Of a stretch of DNA of 42,386 bases, positions 10,127 through 41,974 are shown in pieces. The notes under the pieces were generated by a model that saw nothing but the letters and a program-made list of their open reading frames with translations, searched no databases and was not told the DNA's origin. A program made the translations under genes and the position numbers. Position 1 is the first letter of the stretch. Each line of letters opens with the position of its first letter. This stretch comes from Anaerolineae bacterium (GTDB lineage: Bacteria > Chloroflexota > Anaerolineae > Aggregatilineales > Phototrophicaceae), in contig JABWBO010000060.1 of assembly GCA_013360465.1 (NCBI GenBank), positions 1 through 42,386 on the forward strand. Reading direction: 5' to 3'.

Positions 10127-10169
10127 GGGACACCTTTTTATCTCGTAAACGGCGCGTTGGAGGTTAGAG

Positions 10170-10261
10170 ACTGTTTGCAAACTGCTCACCTCACCCCGTT
10201 TCGCTGCGCTCAACCGCCCCTCTCCAATTGGAGAGGGGCAGGAAACCGTCAGGTTTCCGGG
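10170..10261. repeat. truncated copy of a palindromic intergenic repeat
   Basis: These 92 bp match the reverse complement of the element at 41789-41915 with about two mismatches, from the terminal ACTGTTTGC through the CCTCTCCAATTGGAGAGG palindrome and the GGAAACC/GGTTTCC hairpin. The last 35 bp, containing the second terminal repeat, are missing. It lies in the gap between the sugar permease gene and the secreted protein gene, and may terminate or stabilise transcripts there. No transposase is present. Confidence 0.85.
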
Positions 10262-10367
10262 TCTCTTACAGATCGAAAGCATTGTAGTGTTCAGCATCGT
10301 CGCCGAAAAGCAGCAGAAGTGGTGGGGCGCGCGGCAGGGAGCGCTGCGCGTCCCACAGGGGAAATCA

Positions 10368-17454: not shown

Positions 17455-17580
17455 ACGTTCAGCTTTCAGAGACCTGCCAATCGGTGCGTCCTGAAGCCTG
17501 AGAGTTTCGCCGCCCAGCCCAGCCTGCTGGCGGCTTGCCCCTTCGGCGGCGCTGGGTTGAGTCCCGGCGCACTCTCCGCA
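17455..17580 (-). ncRNA. glycine riboswitch, apparently single aptamer
   Basis: The minus-strand leader of gcvH contains the conserved glycine aptamer core in order: GGAGAG, then GCCGCCGAAGGGGCAAGCC, a GC-rich P3b-like stem, then CGAAACTCTCAGGC and CAGGAC. Only one full aptamer is visible; the following GCAGGTCTCTGAAAGC stretch may be the reduced 'ghost' partner seen beside singlet glycine riboswitches. Glycine binding is expected to switch on the glycine cleavage genes downstream. Boundaries are estimated by eye. Confidence 0.92.
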
Positions 17581-17592
17581 CTGACAGACAAC

Positions 17593-41395: not shown

Positions 41396-41512
41396 TCAGT
41401 ACGGCTCAACCGCCAGGGCGTCAAGCAGCGGTACGAGGTGTTTGAGGTTGCGGGTGAACAACGGGATTTTCAGCCGCGCGCTGGGCGCGGCGATCAGGCA
41501 GTGGTCTACCAT
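41396..41512 (-). pseudogene. remnant of a PIN-domain (VapC-type) toxin gene
   Basis: This 38-codon frame reads MVDHCLIAAPSARLKIPLFT, then RNLKHLVPLLDALAVEPY. The LIAA...LxIPLxTRNxKHxxP...L.VxxPY pattern is the C-terminal third of a PIN-domain ribonuclease toxin. The N-terminal two thirds with the first acidic residues are missing. Its ATG overlaps the antitoxin stop (ATGGTAG), the normal place for the toxin start, so MVD may be the original start joined by a deletion of about 85-90 codons to the C-terminus. The product cannot be an active nuclease. Confidence 0.7.
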
Positions 41513-41780
41513 GTAAAGCGATCTCTAGATGCCTGACGGTGCGCCTCGACCCATTCGGCGGCATCTCCCCCGCCCCACGAGTCAGTGCCTTCGCAGCTGC
41601 CGATCAATCCAGATACCAGGATTTCGGCGGCAGACTTTCCGGCGAAACTCAGCGGCTCGCCCAGTTCGCCTCCGGCGCTTCGGGACTCGTCTGAAGCTAC
41701 AGCAATCGTGACGAACACATCAACCGACTTGAGCGCCAATGGCTGTTCCAGTTCAAGCCTCCCATCCGCGTCGATGCGGC

Positions 41781-41788
41781 CTCTGAGA
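41781..41788. repeat. left 8-bp target duplication CTCTGAGA
   Basis: CTCTGAGA is repeated exactly at 41916-41923, on either side of the element at 41789-41915. Removing one copy and the element restores a continuous antitoxin frame. Confidence 0.75.
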
Positions 41789-41915
41789 AACTGTTTGAAA
41801 AGCCGGTTTTCACACAACCTCACCCCGGAAACCCGACGGTTTCCTGCCCCTCTCCAATTGGAGAGGGGTGGTTGAGCGCAGCGAAACGGGGTGAGGTGAG
41901 CAGTTTGCAAACAGT
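41789..41915. mobile_element. MITE-like non-autonomous palindromic element
   Basis: A 127-bp element with short terminal inverted repeats (ACTGTTTG at one end, CAAACAGT at the other), longer sub-terminal complementarity (CCTCACCCC / GGGGTGAGG), a perfect palindrome around CCTCTCCAATTGGAGAGG and a GGAAACC/GGTTTCC hairpin. It is flanked by an exact 8-bp direct repeat. It encodes no transposase and would be moved by one acting in trans. ISL3, IS66 and IS1595 relatives make 8-bp duplications, but the terminal sequence does not identify a family. A truncated copy in reverse orientation lies at 10170-10261. Confidence 0.75.
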
Positions 41916-41923
41916 CTCTGAGA
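41916..41923. repeat. right 8-bp target duplication CTCTGAGA
   Basis: The exact partner of 41781-41788. The bases just outside the pair differ, so the duplication is exactly 8 bp. Confidence 0.75.
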
Positions 41924-41974
41924 GTCACGGTTTGCATCACGGTCTAGCTCCTCTCGCCTTACTTCTCAAGTGTA

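Follow-up and report, generated by a model that had tools for sequence, protein, structure and literature searches.

The window analysed here, the whole of contig C70 (42,386 nucleotides) in a fragmented MAG of 5.93 Mb and 256 contigs (G000), carries a MITE in frame within a VapB-like antitoxin gene. We consider it about 90% probable that this is a non-autonomous IS5-type MITE which inserted in frame into an antitoxin gene with a mostly deleted toxin partner, and which is carried there as a tolerated passenger. This reading draws on observed copies of the element, their ends and 3-bp duplications, an empty site in a relative, the open frame and the toxin deletion; the MITE insertion itself is well supported and ordinary in kind. 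Three genomes are named below in comparisons: G028, from the same genus, G040, from another genus of the same family, and G029, from the same bacterial family. The only Rfam match of the window at gathering thresholds is a glycine riboswitch aptamer (RF00504, 61.6 bits) at 17476-17589 on the minus strand.

An interrupted antitoxin gene beside a toxin remnant

The minus-strand ORF at 41506-41940 is open throughout and predicts an antitoxin of 144 aa, with a start at GTG 41940 or ATG 41937. Within it, comparison of copies places the element at 41787..41918, a length of 132 bp, with ends GAAACTGTTTG (left) and GAGACTGTTTG (right, minus strand). TGA stands on either side, at 41784..41786 on the left and 41919..41921 on the right, as a 3-bp target duplication, and with 135 bp removed the ORF reads (M)MQTVTLRGRIDADGRLELEQPL. 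An earlier note on this DNA described repeats, palindromes, an open frame and an in-frame insert of 135 bp, and all of these are present in the sequence; the 127-bp element that it had placed at 41789-41915 gives way to the limits above. Inside the element, an outer palindrome, ACCTCACCCCG, has its left arm at 41817..41827 and its right arm at 41887-41897, and a central perfect palindrome, CCCCTCTCCAATTGGAGAGGGG, lies at 41847..41868; the pairs ACCTCACCCCG/CGGGGTGAGGT and CCCCTCTCCAA/TTGGAGAGGGG are exact. Folded as RNA, both strands are much more stable than shuffled sequences (z -6.3 and -6.6).

The open ORF and the intact antitoxin of relatives support the view that the element entered an antitoxin gene in frame. 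The empty site that the earlier note had proposed to look for is present in G028, at the locus compared with the window (L124), where the antitoxin has 99 residues and lacks the insert, and where Mur ligase, antitoxin and toxin follow one another as in the window. The 45 extra residues are absent from all 15 antitoxin sequences at 14 relatives' loci (alignment without four weak rows of 18: L137, L138, L140 and L141).

A PIN-like ORF follows the antitoxin at -4 nt in 7 of the 14 loci and at -10 nt in one more, as judged by eye, with Pfam applied to L124 only. In G028 the toxin is complete, with 127 residues; it overlaps the antitoxin and matches PF01850 (E 1.6e-10), and by sequence it matches VapC (7by2, E 3.1e-5). 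An antitoxin followed by a PIN-domain toxin is the VapBC layout, which G028 thus displays. In the window, the partner toxin is a PIN-domain remnant of 38 codons, against 127 in the relative, at 41399..41512 on the minus strand: its first codons are joined to about the last 36, and about 89 codons are missing relative to L124. No Pfam match was returned for this remnant or for the antitoxin, interrupted or intact, and no NCBIfam match for the interrupted antitoxin. The loss of about 89 toxin codons makes the antitoxin an orphan, in which tolerance of an insertion is unsurprising.

Over the 92 residues after the insert, the antitoxins of G028 and the window are 68% identical, compared with 91.5-97% for the DNA flanks of six MITE copies common to G000 and G028; the locus may therefore be other than a simple vertical orthologue. 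The genes beyond the toxin differ between L124 and the window.

In the course of events that we favour, the 132-bp MITE would have transposed, probably mobilised in trans by an IS5-family transposase, into the VapB-like antitoxin gene at codon 7 or 8, where CTC-TGA-GAG offers a TNA site, with duplication of the TGA. The ORF would stay open and encode 45 extra residues, because 132 + 3 = 135 bp and the element, which is open in two phases, was entered in one of them. Toxin loss may have come before the insertion or independently of it. With the PIN toxin largely deleted, there would be little selection on the antitoxin, whose function was presumably lost, and the insertion would most simply be a tolerated passenger. 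The extended antitoxin is probably a relic; a structure model of it (mean pLDDT 56.5) is too poor to judge.

Genomic copies, open frames and stop codons

Further copies, for which the earlier note had suggested a search of the genome, were located by DNA search and two end patterns. This yielded 125 ends in 253 kb of merged stretches, namely 38 pairs and 49 single ends, and nine further single ends bring the places with one or both ends to 96, or about 90 in the genome, some single ends lying at contig ends and being possibly halves of one copy. A sequence found in so many places is no chance pattern. The element has the features by which a MITE is recognised, being shorter than about 300 bp (132 bp), with terminal inverted repeats, no transposase and many copies, which bears out its description as MITE-like.

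Most often the unit measures 132 bp and bears two end types, GAGACTGTTTGCAAAC and GAGCGTGTCTGCAAAG (consensus of 16 copies), and a sister subfamily of about 114-130 bp, with ends such as GGGTCTGTCTGC, is located at TA sites. The consensus and the open-frame scans were each based on 16 hand-chosen copies. The window copy departs from this consensus at seven positions, five of them within the left end; four of the five are common to C1 and C76:23644, and the fifth is common to C78:6105. A second family copy in the window, at 10167..10265, has lost internal sequence, measures 99 bp and is flanked by TTA on each side. This copy (C70:10167) and four others in the single-ended set (C136:16151, C91:21299, C46:5648 and C84:76498) resemble internally deleted copies with matching flanks.

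Setting aside two nested or double pairs (C160:7490 and C41:6220) and one with a degenerate right end (C58:1608) leaves 35 two-ended copies, and the duplication counts refer to these, without the 49 and the nine single ends. Identical 3-bp flanks occur in 17 of the 35 (8 TAA, 4 TGA, 2 TTA, 2 TCA and 1 ATA), the core being TNA in 16 of the 17. By hand count, TA is common to the flanks of 11 more, and the other 7 lack a duplication of 2-3 bp where the ends are modelled.

Six of the 35 copies have a counterpart at the corresponding position in G028, matched through both flanks for C195, C199 and C52 and through one flank for C225, C256 and C27; C52 is of the 3-bp type and four of the six are of the TA type. 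Since only MITE-bearing stretches of G028 were compared, the other 29 copies are uninformed by this result. The transposition had been called recent; the antitoxin insertion is absent from G028, which gives no finer date.

The element had also been taken for a protein-extending cassette. Such a MITE would behave like the Rickettsia palindromic elements (RPE), and the 144-residue antitoxin would be expressed and functional. The open frame in the window speaks for this possibility, and so do the frames of the family: all eight 132-bp copies scanned are open in two of six frames, one per orientation, so that about a third of in-gene landings of 132-bp copies would be expected to stay open by phase, and over the 16 copies scanned 27 of 96 frames are open, with 10 copies keeping the frame when the 3-bp duplication is included. 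In-frame MITE fusions and RPEs are described in a review, PMC10969869, and RPEs share with this element a length of about 130-150 bp, a palindromic structure and the ability to sit in frame within genes. According to the same review, however, RPEs are often found in frame within genes (PMC10969869), whereas here in-frame spanning has independent support in 1 of the 35 two-ended copies, the antitoxin only, far from the large share that would be RPE-like.

The contexts of the 35 copies, as given by simple longest-ORF gene calls, are a spanning ORF for 6, an adjoining stop codon for 9, an ORF end within the copy for 5 and intergenic sequence for 15. Besides the antitoxin, five ORFs span a copy, and the Pfam check covered four of them: two are antisense to ORFs with Pfam domains (a subtilase with dockerin and a solute-binding protein), and those at C64 and C256 gave no match; the fifth is at C167 (100 aa). 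At C54, a methyltransferase frame is closed by a stop that the copy within it brings in; when the element is removed both sides form one frame, and the downstream part matches Methyltransf_11. A cassette role is thus not supported as a property of the family, given a single supported case and a methyltransferase copy that stops translation, and with the toxin partner mostly deleted we regard a functional extended antitoxin as unlikely.

A related proposal, to which we attach equally little credence, is that the family is shaped for tolerated landing, through an open phase per orientation of the 135-bp unit and a sister subfamily sitting on stops that the duplication restores, and that the extended antitoxin is live with its N-terminal part changed. 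Like-for-like stop tests covered 28 of the 35 copies (17 TNA type and 11 TA type, the seven without duplication being left out), with simple gene calls and a control unmatched for CTAG context. TNA-type junctions coincide with the in-frame stop codon that closes an ORF of 100 aa or longer in 2 of 17 cases, compared with 83 of 1860 control TNA sites (P 0.17), and outside called genes in 1 of 11, compared with 26 of 333 control sites. For the TA type, 8 of 11 junctions are at a stop, compared with 30 of 570 TA sites, and outside called genes 7 of 11, compared with 10 of 88 TA sites (P 5e-5). A family-wide stop-codon effect (12/35; 9/35) was discarded as overstated, having mixed the types and used controls without TAG; like for like, the effect is found in the TA type only. 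The TA-type copies on stops of called genes are C101:8064, C118:59528, C13:53951, C194:2696, C204:6677, C46:9323 and C82:5509. The TA that is duplicated at TA-type copies either preserves the stop or re-creates it.

Target duplication and relationship to IS5-family elements

Exact copies of CTCTGAGA at 41781-41788 and 41916-41923, spaced 135 bp apart, had been read as an 8-bp target duplication. They arise because TGA sits between the element ends and a target reading CTC-TGA-GAG: the left repeat is made of target CTC, TGA and the element's first two bases (GA), and the right repeat of the element's last three bases (CTC), TGA and target GA. The 8-bp duplication is an illusion produced by the likeness of the target to the element ends, and the duplication proper is 3 bp. 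Among the 17 copies with identical 3-bp flanks, the longest exact direct repeat can be as short as 3 bp or as long as 11 bp, which leaves the 3-bp core as the one constant part. The counter-case that the earlier note had set, further copies without an 8-bp duplication, has thus been observed, and it tells against the 8-bp claim but not against the insertion itself. The core is preceded by C in 12 of 17 copies and followed by G in 11 of 17; targets therefore often resemble the element ends, and an apparent repeat is easily lengthened. A true 8-bp duplication, generated by a transposase of a different family, would account for the exact 8-bp repeats in the window copy and in one other copy only, but the remaining 15 have longest repeats of 3, 4, 5, 6, 7, 10 and 11 bp and the IS with nearly the same ends is of the IS5 family, which makes this explanation highly improbable.

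An assembly artefact, in which repeat reads joined unrelated flanks, is hardly credible, for although the MAG is fragmented, with many contigs ending inside copies of the MITE and many single-ended copies, judged by eye, stopping some 95-100 bp away from their intact end, the window copy has both of its ends and a TGA next to each, and its two flanks are one gene, continuous in G028 and other relatives. The break-off in single-ended copies, seen within contigs of G000 too, looks like a short-read assembly effect.

The MITE ends and duplication fit IS5-family elements of the IS1031/IS427 type. PMC12016507 describes the IS1031 subgroup of the IS5 family as preferring TNA and making 3-bp repeats, and ISLrh, of this subgroup, resembles the MITE in its terminal repeat, GAACCTGTCTAG..., and TGA duplication but is a full 857-bp IS of Lacticaseibacillus with its transposase present. 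TNA target and 3-bp duplication go together in the 16 of 17 duplications noted above. Closer at hand, an 866-bp IS in G040 (L239:914-1779), from another genus of the family, has GGGCGTGTCTGCAAA at both ends, with 14 of 15 bases the same as the B end of the MITE; unlike the MITE, it carries a transposase of the IS5 family, whose two frames match NF033580 (E 1.2e-43 and 7.8e-30), and it also matches PF13340/PF01609. G029 has an IS5-family transposase with ends GAGCCTGTTAG. The G040 IS is placed at the level of the IS5 family; IS1031/IS427 type is used here as a name for ends of this kind.

The partner in the host would be an IS5-family element with ends GAGNNTGTYTGCAAA. An autonomous partner with the same ends in the genome is usual for a MITE and no requirement. 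Profile, protein and DNA searches found no IS or transposase with matching ends in G000 or G028. Specifically, PF13340 has no match in G000; PF13359 has none in G000 and one in G028; NF033580 gave one match below the cut-off in G000 (27.5 bits) and two pieces below it in G028, at C345 (84.4 and 28.1 bits), a locus without matching ends. Neither the congener's transposase nor the G040 IS as a DNA query matched anything in G000 or G028. Five PF01609 loci in G000 were rejected as partner, none having a pair of matching ends around the transposase; the matching end at L094 is part of the adjacent MITE copy and not of the PF01609 transposase. Since a multi-copy IS is easily lost from fragmented MAGs, the absence of a partner is weak evidence.

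Like other MITEs with IS5-family ends, the present one has GAG/GAA..TGTYTG starts, a 3-bp TNA duplication, a length of about 130 bp, no coding capacity and a high copy number; it differs in that no partner transposase was found in the genome and in that its core palindromic module is also present in relatives without these ends. Matches to this core (query about 36-121) were obtained in further genomes, both of the genus and of the family, with the MITE ends absent from the match (e.g. L143 and L145); a widespread repeat may therefore have been captured by the MITE. A second MITE family, at L169-L173, L175 and L176 (L174 partly), has the same kind of ends (GAGGGTGTTTGAAAATTG...) and a different palindromic core (GTAGGGGCGCG...). 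Some copies of the first family are broken at the hairpin centre (CCAATTGG or CCAATTGGAG) and continue into CTATGCATTACCCA, apparently the end of another element (L048, L049, L052, L065, L094, L116, L165 and L166); at L094, the broken copy and CTATGCATTACCCA are followed by a transposase that matches PF01609.

As far as literature word searches go, which compare words and not sequence, the MITE family is new. A search combining MITE, toxin-antitoxin and in-frame insertion found no account of the three together, and the one paper that combines MITE, Anaerolineae and inverted repeat appears from its listing to deal with retroelements. Phage and plasmid collections searched with the MITE gave no match. 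A 27-base exact pattern of one MITE end matched, among named records, only 21 stretches, all from a single Anaerolineae MAG (MAG-265, JAEURA01), the window's own genome being possibly outside that search.

The antitoxin locus thus provides a well-supported example of an in-frame MITE landing, with an empty site, a real 3-bp duplication and a likely reason for tolerance. It also serves as a warning that, where the target resembles the element ends, direct repeats flanking a MITE can make the duplication seem longer than it is. The stop-codon landings of the sister subfamily would suit a study of gene-sparing target choice.
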